From positions 1 through 43,805 of the forward strand of contig JAJPYQ010000023.1 of assembly GCA_021204865.1 (NCBI GenBank): a stretch of DNA of 43,805 bases, given 5' to 3'. Made by a program: the position numbers and the translations under genes. Below the pieces are notes generated by a model. That model was not told the origin of the DNA and searched no databases. It saw nothing but the letters and a program-made list of their open reading frames with translations. Below, one piece after another: positions 3,516-25,404 of the stretch. Each line of letters begins with the position of its first letter. The first letter of the stretch is position 1. Source of the stretch: Prevotellaceae bacterium (GTDB lineage Bacteria > Bacteroidota > Bacteroidia > Bacteroidales > Bacteroidaceae).

Positions 3516-3590
3516 GGTCCGGTAGCTCAGTCGGATCAGAGCAACTGCCTTCTAAGCAGTAGGTCATGGGTTCGAGTCCCATCCGGATCA
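3516..3590 (+). tRNA. tRNA-Arg (anticodon TCT)
   Basis: Full cloverleaf. Acceptor 3516-3522 pairs with 3583-3589 (one G-U). The D arm is GCTC/GAGC (3525-3528 with 3539-3542). The anticodon stem is ACTGC/GCAGT (3544-3548 with 3556-3560), with loop CTTCTAA and anticodon TCT at 3551-3553. The T arm is ATGGG-TTCGAGT-CCCAT (3566-3582) and the discriminator is A3590. The next bases are CCT, so the CCA end is not encoded. It reads AGA codons, which occur in these genes alongside AGG. Confidence 0.96.
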
Positions 3591-9592: not shown

Positions 9593-10708
9593 ATGAGAAC
9601 GAGAACCAAACTTCTATTGCTCGCGCCTGTCATTGGCGTGGCTATTTTGTCGTCTTGCGGCAAGAGCAGCAGCTCATCATCGTTGAGCGCGACATTCAAG
9701 ACACAGAAAGTGGAGAAGACAGACCTCACCATGGACACCAAGTATTCGGCAACCATACGAGGCAGACAAGACGTTGAGGTGTACCCGCAAGTAAGTGGAA
9801 CGCTGCAAAAGTTGTGCGTAACCGAGGGGCAGAAGGTGTCAAAAGGGCAGACACTCTTCATCATCGACCAGGTGCCATACATAGCCGCTCTCAACACAGC
9901 CACTGCAAGCCTGGAGGCAGCTAAGGCACAACAAGCGACAGCCGAGCTGAACTACAGCAGCAACCAGACTTTGAGGGAAGAGAACGTGATAAGCGACTTC
10001 GACCTTCAGACTTCCTACAACGCCCTGCTCAACGCCAAGGCGGCTGTCGCTCAGGCTGAGGCTCAGGTGGTTAACGCAAAGAACAGCCTCTCGTACACCG
10101 AGGTGGAAAGCCCATCCGACGGGGTCGTCGGCACACTGCCTTTCCGTCAGGGCGCACTCGTCAGCCCAAGCATGACACAACCCCTTACCACAGTGTCCGA
10201 CAACTCTCAGATGTATGTCTATTTCAGCATGACAGAGAGCCAGCTGCTGACAATGGTGCGTGACCGCGGCTCTATGGACCAGGCGATAGAGAAAATGCCG
10301 GCTCTCGGCTTGACTTTGATTGACGGCTCTACATACGACCAGCCGGGCCGTGTGGAAAGCATAAGCGGAGTTGTTGACCGCGCTACGGGAAGCGTGCAGC
10401 TGCGAGCCGTGTTCGACAACCCGAGAGGGCTGCTGCACAGCGGAAGCACGGGCAATGTCATCATTCCCGTAACATATAAAGACCAACTCATAATCCCCAC
10501 CACAGCGACCGTGCAGACACAAGACAAATATCGTGTCTACGTGGTTGACGCAGACGGCATAGCCACAGAGCGCATCATAACCGTAAGTCCGATAAGCCCA
10601 GCCGACAAATACGTTGTGCTCTCCGGCTTGCAGGTAGGCGAGGAGATAGTAAGCGAGGGCGCAGGCATGGTGAGCGAAGGGCAGCAGGTTAGGGCTAAGG
10701 CCGAATAA
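9593..10708 (+). CDS. RND efflux periplasmic adaptor (membrane fusion) lipoprotein
   Basis: 371 aa. The signal peptide ends in a lipobox (ILSSC, lipidated cysteine at residue 22), so the protein is anchored by lipid in the periplasm. A serine-rich linker follows. The core is AcrA/MexA-like: a first biotinyl-lipoyl half (VEVYPQVSGTLQKLCVTEGQKVSKGQ, about 60-90), an alpha-hairpin rich in Ala/Gln/Glu (about 105-165), the second lipoyl half (SPSDGVVGTLPFRQGALV), then beta-barrel and membrane-proximal domains. It bridges the inner-membrane pump to the outer-membrane channel. First gene of a three-gene operon, 21 bp before the pump. The ATG at 9593 is chosen because the promoter is at 9541 and the lipoprotein signal begins exactly there. 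Confidence 0.95.
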   Translation: MRTRTKLLLLAPVIGVAILSSCGKSSSSSSLSATFKTQKVEKTDLTMDTKYSATIRGRQDVEVYPQVSGTLQKLCVTEGQKVSKGQTLFIIDQVPYIAALNTATASLEAAKAQQATAELNYSSNQTLREENVISDFDLQTSYNALLNAKAAVAQAEAQVVNAKNSLSYTEVESPSDGVVGTLPFRQGALVSPSMTQPLTTVSDNSQMYVYFSMTESQLLTMVRDRGSMDQAIEKMPALGLTLIDGSTYDQPGRVESISGVVDRATGSVQLRAVFDNPRGLLHSGSTGNVIIPVTYKDQLIIPTTATVQTQDKYRVYVVDADGIATERIITVSPISPADKYVVLSGLQVGEEIVSEGAGMVSEGQQVRAKAE

Positions 10709-10729: not shown

Positions 10730-13700
10730 ATGAAAGGAAATATTTTCATTAAACGTCCTGTGATGGCGATGTCTATCGCTATCATGATTTTGCTCGTGGG
10801 CGCGATAAGCTACTTCAACCTGCCCATGGAGTCGTATCCTGACATTGCACCGCCAACGGTGAGCGTGGAGGCGACATACACTGGTGCGGATGCGAGCGCT
10901 GTGATGAACGCCGTCATACAGCCCCTTGAGGAGAGCATCAACGGTGTGGAGAACATGCTTTACATGACATCCACTGCCACTAACGCAGGCTCAGCCCGCA
11001 TAACCATCTACTTCAAGCAGGGCTCAGACCCCGACATGGCAGCCGTGAACGTGCAAAACCGTGTGAGCAAGGCGCAAGGACTGCTGCCTCAGGAAGTCAC
11101 GCAAATCGGTGTGACAACGACGAAGAGGCAGACCTCCTTCCTGCAAATCGACGCATTGACCTCCTCGAAGCCTGAATTCGACGAGGATTATATCGCCAAC
11201 TATCTGGACATCAACATAATCCCCCAGCTGAAGCGTGTGGAAGGTGTGGGCGATGTGATGGAGCTGGGTGGCACATACTCGCTGCGCATCTGGCTGAAAC
11301 CAGACATTATGGCGCAGTACAGCGTCGTCCCTTCCGACGTCACAGAGGCGCTTGCTGAGCAGAACCTTGAAGCTCCGGTCGGGCAGCTGGGAGAGAAGCC
11401 AGTGAACGGCACACATGGTGACGGTGTGGACAACGTATTCCAGTATACAATGAAATACACTGGCCGTCTGAAAGAGATCGAGCAGTTCGAGAATATGGTC
11501 ATAAAGGCCAACGACGACGGAACGCTGCTTCGCCTTAAAGACATAGCCGAGATTGAGCTGGGAGCCGAGCAATACACCTACCACGGCGAGGTCAACGGCA
11601 ACCCTGGCGTGCAGTTCCTTTGCTACCAGCTGGCAGGCACAAACGCCAAAGAGACAAACGACCGTGTGACGGCAAAGCTCGACGAGCTGAGCAAGAACCT
11701 TCCGCAAGGCCTTCAGTTCGTTACGCTGATGAGCTCCAACGACTTCCTGCTTGAGTCAGTGAAGAACGTGGAGGAGACGCTTATTATAGCCATTATCCTT
11801 GTGGTATTCGTGGTTTACTTCTTCCTTCAGAACTTCCGCGCGACGCTCATCCCCTCCATTTCCATCATCGTCTCGCTTGTCGGCACGTTCGCCTGCCTGC
11901 AGGTCGCGGGCTTCTCGCTTAACTTGCTGACGCTCTTCGCCCTTGTGCTCGCCATCGGTACGGTGGTCGATGATGCCATTGTGGTTGTTGAGGCGGTGCA
12001 GGCGAAGTTCGACGCGGGGTATAAGAGTCCGTACGAGGCCACGAAAGATGCCATGGCAGACGTGACTATGGCGGTGATTTCTTGTACCTTCGTGTTCATG
12101 GCAGTGTTCATCCCCGTGAGCTTCATGGGTGGCACGTCAGGTGTGTTCTACACCCAGTTTGGTGTCACTCTTGCCACTGCCGTGGGTATCTCCTGCGTCA
12201 GCGCCCTTGTGCTCTGCCCTGCCCTCTGCGCAATGATGATGAGGTCGACTGACGAGGATGCCAAGAAGAAGGGGCTGTTCGGGCTTATCAACAAGGTGAC
12301 GAAGAAAGCCTACGAGGCTACATACGAGACTTTGCGCGACAAATACGCCAGCGTCATCCACCACTGCGTGCAGCGCAAACTTCGCTACTTGGTGAGCTTC
12401 GGCAGCCTTGTCGTAGCCATTATCGGCATGATATTCTTTGCCAACCATCTGTCTGTGGGACTTGTGCCTACTGAGGATCAGGGTGTCTGCATGATGAATG
12501 TGTCCACAGTTCCTGGCAACAACGTGGCCTCGAGCTTTGCCGTGCTGCAAAAAGCCGAGGATATAGTAAAGGAAATCCCTGAGGTACGCGACTACTCTGA
12601 AGTGGCTGGATATAGTTTCCTCGCAGGTCAGGGCACGTCTTATGCGATGATGGTGATAAGGCTGAAGCAGTGGGACGAGCGGCGCTATGGTTTCTGGCGT
12701 CCCTTGGCCAACTTTATGTCAACCTCCACAATGGTTGCTAACGCCAAGCTTAACGCTAAACTTGTGACGGCGATACCTGAGGCGCAGTGCTTCGTGTTCG
12801 AGCCGGGTATGATACCTGGATATGGTATGGGTTCCATTGAGCTTAACCTGCAAGACAAGACGAGCGCGGCTGACAAGGAGACTTTCTATAACTACACGCA
12901 GAAATTCATCGAGGAGCTGAACAAACGCAAGGAGATCTCCCGAGCCATAACAACCTACGCCCGCAACTTCCCTCAGCTGCAGGTTGAGGTGGACGCTGCC
13001 CAGTGCAAGCGGGCTGGCATTAGCCCCTCCTCCGTTCTCAGCGAGCTGGGCAGCTATTGCGGCGGCTCATACGTGAGCAACATGAACCAGTTCTCGAAGG
13101 TCTACCGTGTGATGATAGAGGCGGCTACCACTTACCGCACGCTGGAGTCTGACCTTAATAATATGTACGTGAAGAACGGTGACGAGATGGCTCCTATCTC
13201 GCAGTTCGTGAAACTGTCGCGCATTGAGGGCCCTGAGATTGACAACCGCTTTAATCTGTTCAGCTCAATAACTGTCAACATCACCCCTGCCACTGGCTCA
13301 TCGGACACAGACGTGATGCTTGCCGTTCAGAAGGTGGCGAAGGATGTCTTCCCCGACGGCTACGACTATGAGTACGGCGGCATAGCAAGGGAGGAGGCTC
13401 AGCAAATCGGCTCTATCGACACGTATATCATCTATGCCGTCTGCGTCGTACTTATCTTCCTGATACTCAGCTGCTTGTATGAGAGCTTCCTTGTCCCCTT
13501 CGCAGTCATCCTCTCAGTGCCTGCCGGACTTATGGGAACTTATCTCTTCGCATGGCTTTGGAACCAGGGCTACAACGTACTGCCCATAATCTTTATGGGG
13601 CAGATAGAGAACAACATCTACCTGCAGACGGGTGTGATTATGCTTATCGGCCTGCTTGCCAAGACAGCCATCCTTATCACAGAGTTCGCCCTGGAGCGCA

Positions 13701-18099: not shown

Positions 18100-19221
18100 A
18101 TGAAATTCACAGTTTCCAGTTCGGCCTTCAGCAGCCGCCTTACCGCAGCCAGCAAAGTTCTGCTGTCGAAAAACACAATGCCCATCCTCGAGTGCTTCCT
18201 CCTTGACGTGAAAAACGGACACGTCAGCATAACGGCAAGCGACGGGGAAAAGTACTTCACCACCAGCGTGCCGCTCATCGACTGCGACAACAACGGACGC
18301 CTCTGCGTGCCGGCAAGGCTGCTCATCGACTCGATAAAGGAGCTCGCGGAGCAGCCCGTCACTCTCGACTTCAACCCCGAGAACATGGAAATACGCATGA
18401 CACACCAGACGGGCTACTTCACCCTTATGGGGCAAGACGCCGAGGTGTTCCCCACACAAGCCAACACCGAGGCGGACGCCACCACGCTCAAGCTAAGCTC
18501 CACCACACTGCTCAAAGGCATAAACCTCTGCATCAACGCCACCGCCTCCGACCAGCTGAGACTGATAATGACATGCATCTACCTCGACGTGCACGAGGAC
18601 TATATAAACTTCGCCGCCACCGACGGCAGGAAACTGGTGCGCTACACGAACAAAGAGTGCAAGGCGGGAATGACAACATCCATGATAATGCCGAAGACAG
18701 TGGCCATGGTATTGCGCAACACACTGACACCAGACACCGACCTCGTCTTCACCTTCGACAAGCAACAGGCGCAGCTGCACACCGACGAGCTCGACTTCTC
18801 GTTCCGCCTCGTGGAGGGCAACTACCTGAACTACAACGCAGTGATCCCCACCAGCAACCCCTACTGCGCAACCGTAGACCGCGCAAGCCTGCTGGGAGCC
18901 ATGAAGCGCGTCAGCGTATTCTGCAACCAAAGCAACGGCCTGACAAAGATACACCTTGAGGGCGGACTGGTGAAGCTCACGGCACAAGACATTGACTACG
19001 GGCGAATCGCCGAGGAGAACCTGCTCTGCGAATACACCAACTCGCCAATCAACATAGGGCTGAACTGCTTCTACGTGATGGACATGATCTCAGTGCTCGA
19101 CTCAGAGCATATCAGTGTGCAACTGGCTGACGCAAGCCGGCCCGCCCTCATCACCCCGCTCGAACAGCCCGAGGGTGAGGAGACAACGATGCTCATCATG
19201 CCGATGATGCTGAATGAATAG
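18100..19221 (+). CDS. dnaN: DNA polymerase III beta subunit (sliding clamp)
   Basis: 373 aa, close to the usual 366-375. It has three clamp domains: the start MKFTVSSSAFSSRLTAASKVL, the hydrophobic pocket and the typical TDGRKLVRY turn near residue 177, and the C-terminal IMPMMLNE in place of the usual M-P-M-R-L end. The dimer encircles DNA and tethers polymerase III and many repair enzymes. It has its own promoter at 18037. In many Bacteroidetes dnaN precedes the same exonuclease, coaBC, porD and recN as here, but here an 805-bp repeat block separates it from them. The final R to M change in the tail is a minor oddity. Confidence 0.96.
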   Translation: MKFTVSSSAFSSRLTAASKVLLSKNTMPILECFLLDVKNGHVSITASDGEKYFTTSVPLIDCDNNGRLCVPARLLIDSIKELAEQPVTLDFNPENMEIRMTHQTGYFTLMGQDAEVFPTQANTEADATTLKLSSTTLLKGINLCINATASDQLRLIMTCIYLDVHEDYINFAATDGRKLVRYTNKECKAGMTTSMIMPKTVAMVLRNTLTPDTDLVFTFDKQQAQLHTDELDFSFRLVEGNYLNYNAVIPTSNPYCATVDRASLLGAMKRVSVFCNQSNGLTKIHLEGGLVKLTAQDIDYGRIAEENLLCEYTNSPINIGLNCFYVMDMISVLDSEHISVQLADASRPALITPLEQPEGEETTMLIMPMMLNE

Positions 19222-20026
19222 AGTTCGTGGCTAATATGTGCGCGGCATGGTTAAACGTGGCGCATTGATAGGGAGTACCTTCGGCACTCATTTTGGTCGT
19301 GCCGACCATCCGAGGGTTACAACCCTCGGCTATCATAGAATAGCCCCTTCGGGGCTTACCATAACCGCCTCTACGACCAATGACCCTTCGGGGCTTGCTA
19401 ATGTCTTAACGCCCGAATGCCGATTGCCACGAATAACCCCGAAAAGGTTGCATAAGCGTAGCCGGGGGTTAAAGGAGAACCCCCAAAGGGGGTTGCCTAT
19501 GGCGAGGCTCGGCTGCGTTCGGAAGAGTCAGCAAGCTGCTCTTCTCTCACTTGCACGAGCGTTCAATACGAGTAGCCGTGGGTTTGCTTCCGCAAGCCAA
19601 TCGTTAATATCTGGAAACACTCCGTGTTTCTGGAACCCACGGTATGGGATATCGCCCCAATTGAGTGCCAGAGGTACTCAACGTCATACGCAAATGCCGG
19701 CAAACGGGTTGCCTTTGGCGAGGCTCGAAACCGAGGGTTTGCAACATCAGGCTATCCCTCTTAAGCGGCTTCGCCACTCTTATAAGCACTTTTATAGGTT
19801 GCGGGGCAACCTTCGGCATTTTTTGTCGCTAGCTCGTTTGCTCTCGCTTGCACGAGCGTTGAGTACCTCCGGCACTCCCCTCGTAATCACACAGAATCCG
19901 GGGGTATCGCTACGCACTTCGTGCGCTCCGTTTGCTCATTTGGCGGGCCTCCAGCTCGCTGGCCCCGGCTACTCTTATGAAACCCCCGCTGGGGGTTTTA
20001 CCTTAACCGCCTAAAAGGATGAATAT
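19222..20026. repeat. 805-bp intergenic block of nested palindromic repeats
   Basis: No gene. A 258-codon open frame runs through it but consists of repeat modules. Recognisable pieces are: GAGTACCTTCGGCACTC (about 19275); CCGAGGGTT...AACCCTCGG (about 19310-19329); a forward module at 19328-19369 (GGCTATC...GCCCCTTCGGGGC...TAACCGCC); a reverse module at 19432-19463; ACCCCCAAAGGGGGT (about 19479-19493); CTCTCACTTGCACGAGCGTT (19544) and its variant at 19841; GAGTGCCAGAGGTACTC (about 19663); GAGTACCTCCGGCACTC (about 19861); and a full right end at 19967-20011, with ACCCCCGCTGGGGGT followed by TTTTACC. It looks like two or more insertions of the 23097-23332 element type that have rearranged. Confidence 0.8.
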
Positions 20027-20830
20027 ATGAGGATAAAATTAGACAGACCATTGGTAATCTTCGATCTGGAGACCACAGGGCTTGACGTTGCGACAGCCCG
20101 AATCATACAGATCTCCTACATCATCGCCAAGCCAGACGGCAGCGAAGAGCGAGCTAACCAGTACATCAACCCCGAGAGGAAGATACCCACGGAGGTGGTG
20201 GAACTGACCCACATAACGGACAAGATGGTGAAAGACGCTCCGACGTTCAAGCAATATGCGCCCGAGCTGGCAAAGGCATTCGGCGGCTGCGACTTCGCAG
20301 GCTTCAACTCCAACTACTTCGACATACCGCTGCTCTGCGAGGAGTTCCTGAGGGCAGGCATAGACTTTGATTTCCGCAGCGCCCGCCTCGTCGACGTGTG
20401 CGGCATCTTCAAGATGATGGAGAGGCGCAACCTTGCGGCTGCCTACGAGTTCTATTGCGGCAGGAAGATGGAGGACGACTTTCAGGCTCACCTTGCCGAC
20501 CAAGACACCGAGGCGACGTGGCGTGTGCTACAAGCTCAGCTTGAGATGTACAGCCCAGAGCGGCAGACTGACCCCTCGAGGATGCTTAAGAACGATGTCA
20601 AATCGTTGGCAGACCTCAGCTCGCAGCGCAAGAACATAGACTTCGCTGGCAGGCTCATCTACAACGACAAAGGCGAAGAGGTTATAAACTTCGGCAAATA
20701 CAAGGGCAGGCTTGTCAGGGAAGTGTTCCCCTACGACCCGGGATACGTGGGCTGGGTGCTGCAAAGCGACTTCACGCAAGACACAAAGCGGTGGTTCGAG
20801 GCTCTGAGAATGAAGTATGGTAGAAGGTAA
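20027..20830 (+). CDS. DnaQ-family 3'-5' exonuclease with ExoX-like C-terminal domain
   Basis: 267 aa. The N-terminal DEDD exonuclease has Exo I FDLETTG (D13, E15), Exo II FAGFNSNYFDIPLL (about 88-101) and Exo III HLADQDTEAT (about 151-160), the DEDDh pattern of polymerase III epsilon and exonuclease X. A C-terminal domain (about 215-267; NFGKYKGRLVREVFPYDPGYVGWVL) resembles the small domain at the end of exonuclease X-like proteins (DUF3820 type). It degrades single-stranded 3' ends or proofreads; the exact partner is unknown. Its end overlaps the coaBC start by 14 bp, so the two are translated together. AAGGATG lies just before the ATG. No promoter stands out in the repeat block upstream. 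Confidence 0.9.
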   Translation: MRIKLDRPLVIFDLETTGLDVATARIIQISYIIAKPDGSEERANQYINPERKIPTEVVELTHITDKMVKDAPTFKQYAPELAKAFGGCDFAGFNSNYFDIPLLCEEFLRAGIDFDFRSARLVDVCGIFKMMERRNLAAAYEFYCGRKMEDDFQAHLADQDTEATWRVLQAQLEMYSPERQTDPSRMLKNDVKSLADLSSQRKNIDFAGRLIYNDKGEEVINFGKYKGRLVREVFPYDPGYVGWVLQSDFTQDTKRWFEALRMKYGRR

Positions 20831-22007
20831 AAGAATCGTTCTCGGCATAACGGGCAGCATAGCAGCCTACAAGTCTTGCCTCATAGCGAGGGCGTTGATA
20901 AGGAGAGGGGCTGAGGTGCAAGTGGTCATGACCCCCGCGGGAAAGGAATTCATCACACCCCTGACACTGAGCACACTGACGGGGAAACCAGTCGTCAGCG
21001 ACTTTTTCTCACGCACGGACGGCACGTGGCACAGTCACGTTGACCTTGGGCTGTGGGCTGACCTGATGCTCGTCGCCCCCGCCACAGCAAGCACCATCGG
21101 CAAGATGGCTAACAGCATAGCTGACAATATGCTTGTGACTACTTACCTTAGCATGAAAGCTCCCGTCTTCATCGCTCCCGCAATGGACCTCGACATGTAC
21201 GCCCACCCCGCCACACAGAGAAACCTTAAGATACTTCGCTCATACGGCAACCATATCATAGAGCCAACAAGAGGAGAGCTGGCGAGCCACCTTGAGGGGA
21301 AAGGGCGAATGGAAGAGCCTGACGAGATTGTAAGGCAACTGGAGGACTATTTCGCTGAAAAAGACCTCGCCGGCAGGCAGATACTCATCACAGCGGGTCC
21401 GACCTACGAGCGCATAGACCCCGTGCGCTTCATAGGCAACTACTCAAGCGGAAAGATGGGACTGGCGATAGCGGAGGAATGCGCCAGCCGAGGGGCAAGC
21501 GTGGAGCTGGTGTGCGGCCCCGTGCAGCTTCAGCCAAGGCATCACGGGATAAGGCGAACCAACGTGGAGAGCGCAAAGGAGATGGCAGAGGCGGCAAAAG
21601 AAATCTTCCCCTCCTCAGACGCTGCCGTGCTTTGTGCCGCCGTGGCTGACTTCACCCCCGAGAGCGAGGCAAGTGAGAAGATCAGACGTGAGGATGGACT
21701 GACGCTCACTCTAAAGCCAACGGAGGACATAGCGGCCTCTCTGGGAAAGCTTAAGAGAAAGGAACAAAGGCTCATTGGCTTCGCCCTTGAGACTTGCGAC
21801 GAGGTGGCTCACGCCCGTGAGAAAATGGAGAGAAAGGGGCTTGACTTCATCGTGCTTAACTCCCTGAAAGACGAGGGGGCAGGCTTCCAGTGCGACACGA
21901 ACAAGGTGACAATCATCTCACCGAATGCCGAACACGCCTACCCGCTGAAGCCAAAAAGGGACGTGGCAAGGGACATTGTGGACGAGCTTAAGAAGATCCT
22001 GCCATGA
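20817..22007 (+). CDS. coaBC: Bifunctional phosphopantothenoylcysteine decarboxylase/phosphopantothenate-cysteine ligase
   Basis: 396 aa, cytoplasmic, two steps of coenzyme A synthesis. The CoaC half (1-185) is an FMN flavoprotein: GITGSIAAYKS, the catalytic-histidine segment HVDLGLWADLMLVAPATA, and PAMDLDMY in place of the classical PAMN motif, as common in Bacteroidetes. The substrate flap lacks the Cys known from E. coli (here ASHLEGKGRMEEP). The CoaB half (about 190-396) has ITAGPTYERIDPVRFIGNYSSGKMG and KRDVARDIVDEL. It overlaps the exonuclease gene upstream (14 bp) and the next gene by 4 bp (ATGA), so it is inside one operon. Confidence 0.96.
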   Translation: MVEGKRIVLGITGSIAAYKSCLIARALIRRGAEVQVVMTPAGKEFITPLTLSTLTGKPVVSDFFSRTDGTWHSHVDLGLWADLMLVAPATASTIGKMANSIADNMLVTTYLSMKAPVFIAPAMDLDMYAHPATQRNLKILRSYGNHIIEPTRGELASHLEGKGRMEEPDEIVRQLEDYFAEKDLAGRQILITAGPTYERIDPVRFIGNYSSGKMGLAIAEECASRGASVELVCGPVQLQPRHHGIRRTNVESAKEMAEAAKEIFPSSDAAVLCAAVADFTPESEASEKIRREDGLTLTLKPTEDIAASLGKLKRKEQRLIGFALETCDEVAHAREKMERKGLDFIVLNSLKDEGAGFQCDTNKVTIISPNAEHAYPLKPKRDVARDIVDELKKILP

Positions 22008-22897
22008 GACTTATCACAGTATTAGCGGCATTTGCCTGCCTACCAGCCGCAGCCCAGGAGCTTAACGCAAAGGTGGTGGTGAACACCGCACAAATATCTA
22101 ACACGAAGACTGAGGTCTTCGAGTCGCTGCAGGACAAGGCGCAAAGCTTCCTCAACGACCACCAGTGGACTGATCTCTCGTTTAAGGAGGTGGAGAAAAT
22201 CGCCTGCAACTTTAACATCACCGTGAACAAATGGGACGAGTCGAGCAACTCTATGGAGTGCACCCTCCTGCTCACAAGCAGCCGCCCCGTGTACAATAGC
22301 AGCTACAACACCACGCTCTACAACATAAAGGACGGCGACTTTAACTTCAACTTCCAGACGACTGACGAGCTGGAGTGGAACGCTGACTATATTGACAATA
22401 ACCTCACCGCTATGCTCGCCTACTATGCCTATATGATCATCGGCTACGACTTCGATAGCATGTCTCCCAAAGGTGGAACTGCCTACCTGCAAACGGCTGA
22501 GGATATCGTGACAAACTCGCAAAGCCTCGGCTTCACTGGCTGGGACTCGTTCGGGAGCAGCCAGAACCGCTTCGGCCTTCTCAACGACTATATCGACGGC
22601 TCGATGGAGGACTACCGCCTGATGATATATAAGTATCACCGAGAGGGAATGGACCAGATGGTGGAAAGCACGGACAAAGGGCGAGCCGCCATAACGGAGG
22701 CACTGGAACTGCTCGACGGATGCAAGAACGCGCGCCCCATGAGCCAGCTGCCCACACTGTTCACCGAATGCAAACGGGACGAGCTGGTGAGCATCTACTC
22801 CGACCACGGCACTACGGAGGAAAAGAACACCGCCTACAACATCCTCTTCGGCATCAACCCCTCGATGAGCGACTACTGGGACAAGATTAAGCAGTGA
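22004..22897 (+). CDS. porD: PorD/DUF4835 family exported protein
   Basis: 297 aa with a signal peptide (MRLITVLAAFACLPAAAQ). The mature start ELNAKVVVNTAQISNTKTEVFESLQ and the phrase KGGTAYLQTAEDIVTNSQSLGFTGWDSFGSS are hallmarks of the DUF4835 family, which is annotated as PorD, a component linked to type IX secretion in Bacteroidetes. The position between coaBC (ATGA overlap) and recN is the usual one for this family. It probably acts in the periplasm or envelope; its biochemical role is not known. The gene ends 12 bp before a 22-bp repeat array. Confidence 0.88.
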   Translation: MRLITVLAAFACLPAAAQELNAKVVVNTAQISNTKTEVFESLQDKAQSFLNDHQWTDLSFKEVEKIACNFNITVNKWDESSNSMECTLLLTSSRPVYNSSYNTTLYNIKDGDFNFNFQTTDELEWNADYIDNNLTAMLAYYAYMIIGYDFDSMSPKGGTAYLQTAEDIVTNSQSLGFTGWDSFGSSQNRFGLLNDYIDGSMEDYRLMIYKYHREGMDQMVESTDKGRAAITEALELLDGCKNARPMSQLPTLFTECKRDELVSIYSDHGTTEEKNTAYNILFGINPSMSDYWDKIKQ

Positions 22898-22909
22898 AGC
22901 AGCAAACGA

Positions 22910-22964
22910 CCGCACCGACTTTTTATCTCAACCGCACCGACTTTTTATCTCAACCGCACGAGAC
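22910..22964. repeat. 22-bp array, CCGCACCGACTTTTT type, locus 3
   Basis: Units start at 22910 and 22932, with a partial CCGCACGAGAC at 22954. The same partial unit closes the array at 8980, and GGCAAAGATGTCGTG occurs beside both (about 8949 and 22969). Confidence 0.9.
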
Positions 22965-23066
22965 GAAGGCAAAGATGTCGTGGAGAATTGGCAAGGATGT
23001 AGCGAGAAGATGGGGCGATGATAACGATGATAGGAACGCATAAGAACGTAAACAACGATAGAACTA

Positions 23067-23332
23067 CGAAGGGGTTTCCAATGACATTGTGTGAGCGGCT
23101 AAGGGAGAACCCCCAAAGGGGGTTCAATACGAGTAGCCGAGGGTTGAACAACCCTCGGTTGGTCGGCACGACCAAATTGAGTGCCGGAGGTACTCAATAT
23201 CACCCACAAACGCTGCCAAACGAGTTGAGTACCTCCGGCACTCACGTTAGCTGCGCCTTGAATCCGAGGGTATCGCTTCGCTTAACCCCCGGCTACTCTT
23301 CTGAAACCCCCGCTGGGGGTTTTGCCTTAACC
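23067..23332. repeat. Direct repeat copy A containing an inverted-end element
   Basis: 266 bp, identical to copy B (23430-23695) except for one base (A23306 against C23669). Within it the 42-bp ends 23097-23138 and 23291-23332 are inverted relative to each other and match at 33 of 42 positions without gaps. Between them are CCGAGGGTTG-AA-CAACCCTCGG (23137-23158), GGTCG-GCA-CGACC (about 23161-23173), GAGTGCCGGAGGTACTC and its reverse complement GAGTACCTCCGGCACTC (about 23179 and 23226). The whole unit can fold as one long nested palindrome. Confidence 0.92.
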
Positions 23333-23429
23333 ACCCACAAGCTAACCAAACCTTCGGGGCAATCTATGGCGAACGTCAATGGCTACGCATGTTATGCCCC
23401 TTCGGGGCTTGCTTCGCCACGAATAACCC

Positions 23430-23695
23430 CGAAGGGGTTTCCAATGACATTGTGTGAGCGGCTAAGGGAGAACCCCCAAAGGGGGTTCAATACGAGTAGC
23501 CGAGGGTTGAACAACCCTCGGTTGGTCGGCACGACCAAATTGAGTGCCGGAGGTACTCAATATCACCCACAAACGCTGCCAAACGAGTTGAGTACCTCCG
23601 GCACTCACGTTAGCTGCGCCTTGAATCCGAGGGTATCGCTTCGCTTAACCCCCGGCTACTCTTCTGAACCCCCCGCTGGGGGTTTTGCCTTAACC
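23430..23695. repeat. Direct repeat copy B containing an inverted-end element
   Basis: Second copy of 23067-23332 at an offset of 363 bp, same orientation, one mismatch. The inverted ends fall at 23460-23501 and 23654-23695. Near identity means a very recent duplication or active homogenisation. recN starts 41 bp later. Confidence 0.92.
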
Positions 23696-23736
23696 GTCTG
23701 CAAGCCAAAGGCAATAAACAAGACCTCTGACCCGCT

Positions 23737-25404
23737 ATGCTAAAGCACCTGCACATAAGGAACTACGCGCTTATCGACCAGCTTGACATTGAGTTCGGGC
23801 GGGGCTTCTCCGTCATCACTGGCGAGACAGGTGCGGGCAAGTCCATCATCCTTGGGGCAATCGGACTATTGCTTGGGCAGAGAGCTGACGCTAAGGCTAT
23901 CAAGACGGGCGAGAAACGCTGCGTGATAGAGGCGGAGTTCTGCACAAGCCAAAGCGCCGTAAGCCAGTTCCTCACAGCTAACGACTTCGAGCAGGAGGGC
24001 GACATTTGCACCATAAGAAGAGAGGTATCCCAAACTGGCAAGTCGCGAGCCTTCATCAACGACACGCCTGCCACGGTGGCTCAACTAAGAGAGCTTGGCG
24101 ACCAGCTCGTCGACATACACAGCCAGCACCAGAACCTCCTGCTAAGCCGCGAGAACTTCCAGCTAAGGGCGCTGGACACAGTGGCCAAGAACGCCCCCTT
24201 GCTCGAGGCTTACAGCGCCTCCTTCGGGCTCTACAAGGCGACGCAAAGGGAGCTTGCCAAGGTGCGCAAGGCGTGGGAGGAAGAGCAGAGGGAGCAGGAC
24301 TATATGCAGTTCCAGTTCAGCCAGCTCGAAGAGGCTAAGCTGCGTGAGGGCGAGCAAGAGGAGCTTGAGCAAAGGCAGCGCAGCCTTGAGCACGCCGAGG
24401 AGACGAAGAGCCAGCTGTTCAGCGTGTCCGACACCTTTAATAAAGAGGAGACGGGCGTGCTTGACGGCTTGCTGAGGGCACAGCGCAGGCTGGAGGGCAT
24501 AGCCGCCTATTGCCCAGAGGTGGAAGAGCTGGCGAGGCGCGTGGAGAGCTGCAAGATAGAGCTTAAAGACGTTGCGGCTGAGGTGGACGACAAGCTGGAA
24601 GAGGCGGAGAGCGACCCGCAAGCATTGGAGAAGGTGGTGGAGAGGCTCGACCTTATCTACGACCTTCTGCGCAAGCACCACACCGACAGCGTCCAGGACT
24701 TGCTGCGTCTCAGGGAGGAGCTTAGGCAAAAGCTCCACTTGATAGACAGGCGTGAGAGCGAGATAAGCGAGCTTGAGGGGCGGTTGCAGACCGAAGAGAG
24801 GGAACTCCTCAGGTGCGCCTCCGCCCTGTCCGCCTCTCGAAGGAAGGCAGCACGTGAGCTGGAGCAGGGGATGCTCGCAAGGCTGAAGGACCTGGGGATG
24901 CCTAACATCCAGTTCGAGGCTCGGGTGACTGAGGCGCAAGAGCCTACTCAGCAGGGCAAGGACAATGTCACCTTCTCCTTCAGCGCAAACAAGAACACGC
25001 CCTTGCAGCCCATCGCACAGGTGGCGAGCGGCGGAGAGATAGCCCGTGTGATGCTTGCCCTCAAAGCCCTCATCAGCAAGGCGACACAGCTGCCTGCCGT
25101 CATCTTCGACGAGATAGACACGGGGGTGAGCGGACGGATAGCCGAGCAGATGGCAAAGCTTATGCGAGAGATGAGCGAAGGCGAGGAGCGGCAGGTCATC
25201 TCGATAACGCACCTGCCCCAGATTGCCGCCTTGGGCGAGCACCACTACCGTGTGTTCAAGGAGGAAAGCTCCCTCGGCTCTGCCAGCCGCATTGCCTTGC
25301 TCACACGAGAGGAACGCATAGAGGAGCTTGCCCACCTGCTCTCAGGCTCTACAGTGACGCAAGCCGCCATAGATAACGCAAAGACACTTCTATCAAACGC
25401 ATAA
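23737..25404 (+). CDS. recN: DNA repair protein RecN
   Basis: 555 aa, the usual RecN length (about 553). It is an SMC-like cytoplasmic ATPase that acts in recombinational repair of double-strand breaks. The N-terminal half has MLKHLHIRNYALIDQLDIEFG and Walker A GETGAGKS (about 30-37). Long coiled coils rich in E/L/R follow (about 155-365). The C-terminal half has the signature region ASGGEIARVMLALK and Walker B LPAVIFDEIDTGVSG. The stop codon overlaps the next ATG by one base (TAATG), so it is co-translated with the secreted TPR protein. The upstream 41 bp after the repeat element hold no clear promoter. Confidence 0.96.
   Translation: MLKHLHIRNYALIDQLDIEFGRGFSVITGETGAGKSIILGAIGLLLGQRADAKAIKTGEKRCVIEAEFCTSQSAVSQFLTANDFEQEGDICTIRREVSQTGKSRAFINDTPATVAQLRELGDQLVDIHSQHQNLLLSRENFQLRALDTVAKNAPLLEAYSASFGLYKATQRELAKVRKAWEEEQREQDYMQFQFSQLEEAKLREGEQEELEQRQRSLEHAEETKSQLFSVSDTFNKEETGVLDGLLRAQRRLEGIAAYCPEVEELARRVESCKIELKDVAAEVDDKLEEAESDPQALEKVVERLDLIYDLLRKHHTDSVQDLLRLREELRQKLHLIDRRESEISELEGRLQTEERELLRCASALSASRRKAARELEQGMLARLKDLGMPNIQFEARVTEAQEPTQQGKDNVTFSFSANKNTPLQPIAQVASGGEIARVMLALKALISKATQLPAVIFDEIDTGVSGRIAEQMAKLMREMSEGEERQVISITHLPQIAALGEHHYRVFKEESSLGSASRIALLTREERIEELAHLLSGSTVTQAAIDNAKTLLSNA

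Follow-up and report, generated by a model that had tools for sequence, protein, structure and literature searches.

REPIN-like elements between porD and recN of a Prevotellaceae bacterium and their probable link to Y1 transposases of subclass 1.2

Between porD and the gene that we take to be recN, a Prevotellaceae bacterium (GenBank assembly GCA_021204865.1) carries a repeat block made of two tandem copies of a short, gene-less element with inverted ends. The block lies in contig JAJPYQ010000023.1, whose positions 1 to 43,805 form the window, that is, the whole stretch of DNA analysed here. The term REPIN-like (a REPIN being a doublet of repetitive extragenic palindromic, or REP, sequences forming a hairpin) holds as a description of this block, and we consider it probable that both copies are non-autonomous elements, here called family 1, which were spread in trans by a transposase of the Y1/HUH type. 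The novelty lies in the compound structure of their ends and in their association with TnpA transposases of subclass 1.2.

The two 266-bp copies reported in an initial annotation of the window (23067-23332 and 23430-23695) differ on direct comparison at a single base (A at 23306, C at 23669), and the direct repeat to which they belong reaches 284 bp with 8 differences, at a spacing of 363 bp. The inverted 42-bp ends of a copy, also reported there, do match at 33 of 42 positions, and since the best inverted match over 42 bp, taken from each of 200 shuffled versions (dinucleotide shuffles) of the 284-bp unit, had a mean of 21.8 and a maximum of 25, this agreement is not a matter of chance. The inverted arms extend to 56 bp at a 79% match. 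The unit is short, gene-less and bounded by terminal inverted repeats (TIRs), as are the miniature inverted-repeat transposable elements (MITEs), and its single strands, folded with RNA parameters, lie 10.4 (plus) and 12.2 (minus) standard deviations below shuffled sequences, the whole unit being predicted, as in REPINs, to form a hairpin (z -10.4 and -12.2).

The nested palindromes that had been described between the ends follow one plan on both sides. Going inward, an outer palindrome (GAACCCCC/GGGGGTTC type) is separated by ~7 nt from the tag GTAG, after which come a REP hairpin (CCGAGGGTT...AACCCTCGG) and a further palindrome, the inner one (GAGTGCC-GGA-GGTACTC). The ends stand in inverted orientation to each other, their GTAG tags facing outward, and the left end has an additional small hairpin; two inverted REPs with outward tags and a spacer are what defines a REPIN, and short pairs of this kind also occur in genus-mates. 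In copy 1 (23090-23339, plus strand, arms at 23090-23145 and 23284-23339), the left end comprises, on the plus strand, the outer palindrome GAACCCCC-AAA-GGGGGTTC (23107-23125), the REP (23133-23158, GTAG at 23133-23136, hairpin CCGAGGGTT-GAAC-AACCCTCGG), the small hairpin GGTCGGCACGACC (23161-23173; GGGGCATCGCCCC or GGTGCATCGCACC in other copies) and the inner palindrome TTGAGTGCC-GGA-GGTACTCAA (23177-23197). The right end, on the minus strand, holds the inner palindrome (23225-23245), the REP (23264-23296, GTAG at 23293-23296, hairpin CCGGGGGT...ACCCTCGG) and the outer palindrome (23304-23323). Outer palindromes were placed by sequence and alignment, the small hairpin by alignment, the REPs by pair counts, and the inner palindromes by sequence and core counts, with pair counts added for the left one. 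Copy 2 (23459-23696, plus strand, arms at 23459-23508 and 23647-23696) has its REPs, each GTAG plus hairpin, at 23496-23521 (plus) and 23627-23659 (minus), located by sequence and core search.

The REP hairpins of the family are kept. Standard pairs occupy 97.5% of the hairpin pair cells in 17 left ends and 96.0% in 24 right ends, and 4 (left) and 10 (right) cells are changed on both sides, which was reached by 0 of 500 shuffles. These ends were what remained of 20 left and 28 right candidates before alignment, after dropping three right-type ends among the former and, among the latter, L043:13586, L030 (contig end), L061:285 (left type) and L043:10162 (tandem array). The counts exclude the small hairpin next to the left REP, because its variants occupy two alignment registers and resemble exchanged modules.

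The element family is multicopy and lineage-specific. The initial annotation had proposed looking for many copies in the host, and diverged ones abound: BLAST of the unit against its own genome gave 127 matches (both strands of some places counted), exact REP cores (GTAGCCGNGGGTT) number 90 as against 0 for the reversed control, and exact inner-palindrome cores number 55 as against 0-2 in each of 30 relatives. The inner-palindrome pattern had zero matches in the viral contigs searched. With up to 2 mismatches allowed, 46 matches were obtained for a second subfamily, GCGTAGCCGGGGGTNGAGC, whose pattern also catches right ends of family 1. Most listed copies are mosaic and well diverged from the window unit. 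Printed left-right combinations of ends amount to 24, some of them overlapping, many of which contain additional hairpins, and in places (e.g., 19458) half a REP stem, the first one, is immediately followed by an outer palindrome, as if inserted there. Element ends also form short tandem arrays, with periods of ~44-45 and 77 bp (L043 ~10220-10330 and 13448-13683; G000 C14 and C29), which look as if end pieces had been added stepwise.

A search for the unit in 40 relatives gave one match only, single and weak (G016). The DUF4835/porD gene was located in 40 of 41 genomes searched, and its locus was retained for 30, of which one was the window's own and one lacked recN, leaving 28 for comparison. 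The porD-recN gap measures 839 bp here vs -4 to 71 bp in all 28 genus-mates (recN starts extrapolated from alignments), and -1 to 71 bp in the eight nearest ones, with a porD 68-71% identical. Because the compared genomes are other species, what this comparison reveals is a lineage-specific insertion and not an empty site at the level of strains, such as had initially been proposed as a check.

According to the initial annotation the window holds no transposase, and for Y1_Tnp there is indeed none on its contig, although other transposase families were not searched for. A PF01797 (Y1_Tnp) search of the whole genome, whose assembly is 89% complete, found two genes, both on contig C24 and next to elements, in agreement with the earlier suggestion to look for a transposase gene with the same ends. 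P0004 (147 amino acids) is flanked on both sides, in inverted orientation, by outer palindrome, GTAG and REP hairpin, spanning 679 bp from tag to tag. P0003 (148 amino acids), beside family 1, has an element and further ends upstream, so that the flanking of a Y1 transposase gene by the same repeats, characteristic of REPINs, is one-sided in its case. Beyond the ABC-transporter-like region downstream of P0003, visual inspection shows an insert (L042 2640-2760) that is palindromic and has related motifs.

Both tnpA frames are open and have the HuH (histidine-hydrophobic-histidine) and Y motifs. The proteins are 59% identical, and both carry DHVH and Y---Q--HH (YVRAQKEHH and YVRNQKEHH), the latter pattern being invariant in 7/7 aligned sequences. 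Judged by sequence, they carry the TnpAY1 subclass 1.2 signature, and with two Y1 genes at this identity the genome also shows the low copy number of that subclass. On the NCBI IS200/IS605 model NF033573 they score 63.7 and 72 bits (cut-off 55), and the closest solved structures by sequence include the ISHp608 transposase (2a6m) and 2xm3, which we take to be that of ISDra2. The Joint Genome Institute (JGI) label 'REP element-mobilizing transposase RayT', found on 8 of 40 listed relatives, is a label and not a test. One trait each of two neighbouring classes does not apply to these genes and ends: several near-identical transposase gene copies, a trait of IS200/IS605, are not what two genes at 59% identity represent, and a TIRtron with ends unrelated to GTAG REPs does not agree with ends that hold GTAG-tagged hairpins.

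A Y1_Tnp match at E<=0.001 exists in 23 of 61 genus genomes (own included), and matches above 60 bits number eight, in seven genomes. When the hairpin flanking tnpA was tested in four genus-mates, it was multicopy in three (84, 40 and 26 copies) and present as two ends only in the fourth; each of these three combines one tnpA-bearing unit with many short units that share a common hairpin. In G071, 42 of the 84 hairpins form 21 inverted pairs of the short kind, at distances of 117-119 bp, and tnpA lies within a single long pair. By eye, the tnpA unit and 18 printed short pairs follow the common plan O - GTAG - CCAGCCAnnnnTGGCTGG - GCGTGCC..GGTACGC, inverted, where O is the outer palindrome, and the short copies are much alike. 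The polarity of the inner palindrome (TGCC before GGTA, by eye) is the same at both ends of the window element, at the right P0004 end and in G022, G071 and G045. Elsewhere, the G071-type pattern occurs 18 times in G045, twice in G022 and 0 times in 18 other genomes. A second hairpin pattern accounts for the 40 copies of G043 (17 short pairs, one long) and the 26 of G013 (7 short, one long), with 0-5 in the other 19 genomes; G048 and G051 have a tnpA with other ends.

The same plan surrounds tnpA genes in other phyla. A Y-motif scan of genome contigs gave at least 568 confirmed stretches, of which 80 were kept and 78 were usable, the kept loci coming from Bacteroidota, Verrucomicrobiota, Planctomycetota and others, as judged by record titles. 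With 936 mismatched up-/downstream pairings as a control and their 99th percentile as the threshold, 51 of the 78 loci have inverted arms that exceed it. Of the 78 loci, 37 have compound ends (scored as outer hairpin, gap, NTAR and second hairpin) on both sides and 26 on one side; the corresponding figures are 2 and 37 among 390 shuffles (neither side in 351). The 29 porD control flanks, taken at fixed distances from locus ends and thus possibly inside a gene where the contig cuts the locus, have compound ends on both sides in 0 cases and on neither in 27. In two genomes hand-picked from these loci, a Chryseobacterium and a Tannerellaceae metagenome-assembled genome, the tnpA end has 18 and 71 matches, respectively, tnpA's own ends included. 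We also put forward a wider proposal, which we regard as evenly balanced: that subclass 1.2 of TnpA constitutes one more lineage of transposases that spread REPs, hitherto unrecognised and present across several phyla. The compound ends of its units would combine two or three hairpins with an NTAR-like tag; intact units would carry tnpA between these ends, and the short elements would be their gene-less derivatives.

Comparison with known systems places the element close to REPINs. Those of Pseudomonas and E. coli consist of an inverted REP pair plus spacer, occur in many copies outside genes and are linked to a Y1 transposase (Bertels and Rainey 2011, PMC3116915). The present elements likewise have two inverted REPs with a spacer as a long hairpin, many copies, which may also lie outside genes, and a linked Y1 tyrosine transposase; unlike REPINs, their ends are three palindromes in fixed order, the unit measures ~240 bp or longer, often with more hairpins, and the transposase bears another subclass signature. 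A GTAG tag on a hairpin, head-to-head dimers and a tnpA between inverted ends are shared with GTAG repeats and TIRtrons. The GTAG repeats listed in that survey are from Proteobacteria, Cyanobacteria, Chloroflexi and the Planctomycetes-Verrucomicrobia-Chlamydiae (PVC) group, with only CGTC repeats in Bacteroidetes (Di Nocera 2013, PMC3733652), whereas our GTAG-tagged ends are in Bacteroidota. Most TIRs are described there as unrelated to REPs, and the double inverted repeats that join a degenerate GTAG unit and another stem-loop at two Pseudomonas genes offer a precedent for compound ends (PMC3733652).

Subclass 1.2 of TnpAY1 is characterised by Y---Q--HH, ~148 amino acids, low copy number and Bacteroidetes among its hosts (Quentin 2018, PMC6006769), all of which apply here; the survey table gives 'no' REP for it (PMC6006769), unlike the compound tagged ends on both sides of tnpA seen in 37/78 loci. 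Our literature search on this subclass and on Bacteroidetes REPs, of limited reach, found no description of subclass 1.2 REPs. The likeness to IS200/IS605 lies in the structures and the NF033573 scores, and the differences in the inverted orientation of our ends, in a gene that is not multicopy and in spread units from which this gene is missing. Finally, the BrickBuilt repeats of Porphyromonas gingivalis are MITE-named repeats that break assemblies of a Bacteroidales genome (PMC5771137); the likeness concerns type, host order and assembly breakage, and BrickBuilt differs in containing a minisatellite, according to a title cited in PMC5771137. In our host, too, the element repeats probably broke the assembly, because at least 24 of 39 element places (distinct places hand-picked from the 127 BLAST matches) are no more than 600 nt away from a contig end, where ~2 are expected; 24 is a lower count because the lengths of some contigs were left unentered.

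Regarding mechanism, studied Y1 enzymes read a tag plus hairpin on single-stranded DNA and cut beside the hairpin, the tag taking part in the choice of cut site in at least one of them (PMC8266576, PMC3116915). By analogy, the transposase of our host would recognise tag and hairpin on single-stranded DNA and would cut and rejoin DNA through its tyrosine, so spreading short elements in trans. These short elements may derive from a tnpA-bearing unit by gene loss, and insertion into older copies may build the nested forms. Near identity of the two window copies had been attributed to recent copying or gene conversion; it is best read as local tandem duplication, because the next best genomic copy is 95% identical over 225 bases and both copies lie in one 363-bp repeat, and this duplication most likely followed insertion.

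The reading of the block as a mobile-type element is supported, its actual mobility being inferred, and among the alternatives first considered for the block REPIN-like fits best. Several observations weigh against a transposase-driven spread or its generality. The P0004 unit has no recognisable inner palindrome on its left, so that this palindrome is on one side only, and P0003 has no element end downstream, where an ABC-transporter-like gene starts at once (by eye). Both proteins score below the cut-off of 80 on the model for REP-associated transposases, NF047646 (26.8 and 25.7 bits), and strict membership among the REP-associated tyrosine transposases (RAYT, class 2 TnpAREP) fails on this count. 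Among genus-mates, G022 has a tnpA with its own two ends only and no spread copies, G045 has 18 hairpin copies and no Y1_Tnp match in an 84% complete assembly, and in G043 and G013 the tag is TCAG or ATAG, not GTAG, with an inner palindrome of another kind. The genomes with an empty porD-recN site are other species, whose porD is 51-71% identical. The copies behind the pair counts are related sequences, further pair types were as high in 430/500 (left) and 48/500 (right) shuffles, and pairs changed on both sides were matched by 15/500 and 10/500. At the tnpA loci, no arms above threshold were found in 27/78 and a compound end on neither side in 15/78, and 2/29 porD control flanks have one on one side.

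The strongest rival is a version of the preferred explanation, compatible with it and possible though less than evenly probable, in which the elements are relics, spread by a transposase in the past and now changing through nothing but recombination, gene conversion and local duplication. The divergence and mosaicism of most listed copies, a window pair that fits local duplication and a family-1 tnpA lacking its downstream element end are all in its favour, whereas the two open tnpA frames with their HuH and Y motifs and the similar short copies of G071 speak against it. Unlikely, in our view, is a functional origin as RNA or transcript-end elements, namely terminators or mRNA stabilisers in operons that spread as host-useful sequences, the transposase link being secondary. 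Strong folding and the kept hairpins agree with it, as do the places of insertion, mostly downstream of genes: of 30 places set among open reading frames (ORFs), 20 had genes called on both sides, with 8 convergent, 11 co-directional and 1 divergent arrangement, and since elements were masked before ORF calling, insertions inside genes could have been missed. These surroundings resemble those of REPs, which counts for the transposase reading as well. The functional reading is opposed by the same operon gap without the block in every genus-mate compared, the element being species-specific, by same-plan ends flanking tnpA genes and by Rfam, in which nothing matched at gathering score and the lower-scoring matches were of chance level, so the 'large structured RNA' of the initial annotation found no support at either threshold. 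The functional-RNA and transposase readings are nevertheless compatible.

Rickettsia palindromic elements are protein-coding insertion elements, and a similar element kept open in one frame is a very improbable account of the block. Open plus-strand frames do cover both window places (23018-23743, 241 codons; 19238-20014, 258 codons), and a frame open throughout occurs in 12 of 23 elements vs 3.1 expected in shuffles, an excess that is not independent because the elements are related copies; against this, neither frame matched in a Pfam search and both places lie between genes. Such open frames, one per repeat block, may lead gene callers to predict spurious proteins there. Plain local duplication of intergenic sequence without mobile character, to which the tandem arrangement and the 265/266 identical bases would be suited, is refuted as a full account by the many other genomic places and by transposase genes whose ends follow the same plan.

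The second window place (19238-20017, from BLAST and sequence), absent from the initial annotation, holds a longer relative of the element (~19266-20017) with extra hairpins. It sits between the presumed dnaN (18100-19221) and a DnaQ-like exonuclease gene (20027-20830), in a run of plus-strand genes that continues with what are presumably coaBC (20817-22007), the DUF4835 gene (22004-22897; DUF4835, like the exonuclease, from a domain search, and named porD in the initial annotation) and recN (23737-25404). The linker between the two window copies (23346-23429) holds, by eye, pieces like those of the second subfamily (GGCTACGCA..., CCACGAATAACCCCGAAGGGG). Just 3' of porD, at 22909-22952, the 22-bp ACCGCACCGACTTTTTATCTCA stands twice, head to tail, and short repeats containing CGTGCGGT also adjoin both tnpA loci (L041, L042; by eye). 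Rfam places one tRNA gene in the window, at 3516-3590.

The elements described here bring together, in one genome, a transposase close to IS200 TnpA between tagged inverted ends and same-plan short copies that fill that genome. Genus-mates present different stages of this relation, from a tnpA with two ends, through 18 copies with no gene found, to genomes with 26, 40 and 84 copies in which one unit only has tnpA, and therefore the step from a transposon to a REP population becomes directly testable. If the wider proposal on subclass 1.2 is true, copies may grow by insertion into the hairpins of older copies, and subclass 1.2 would bridge IS200 insertion sequences and domesticated REP transposases.
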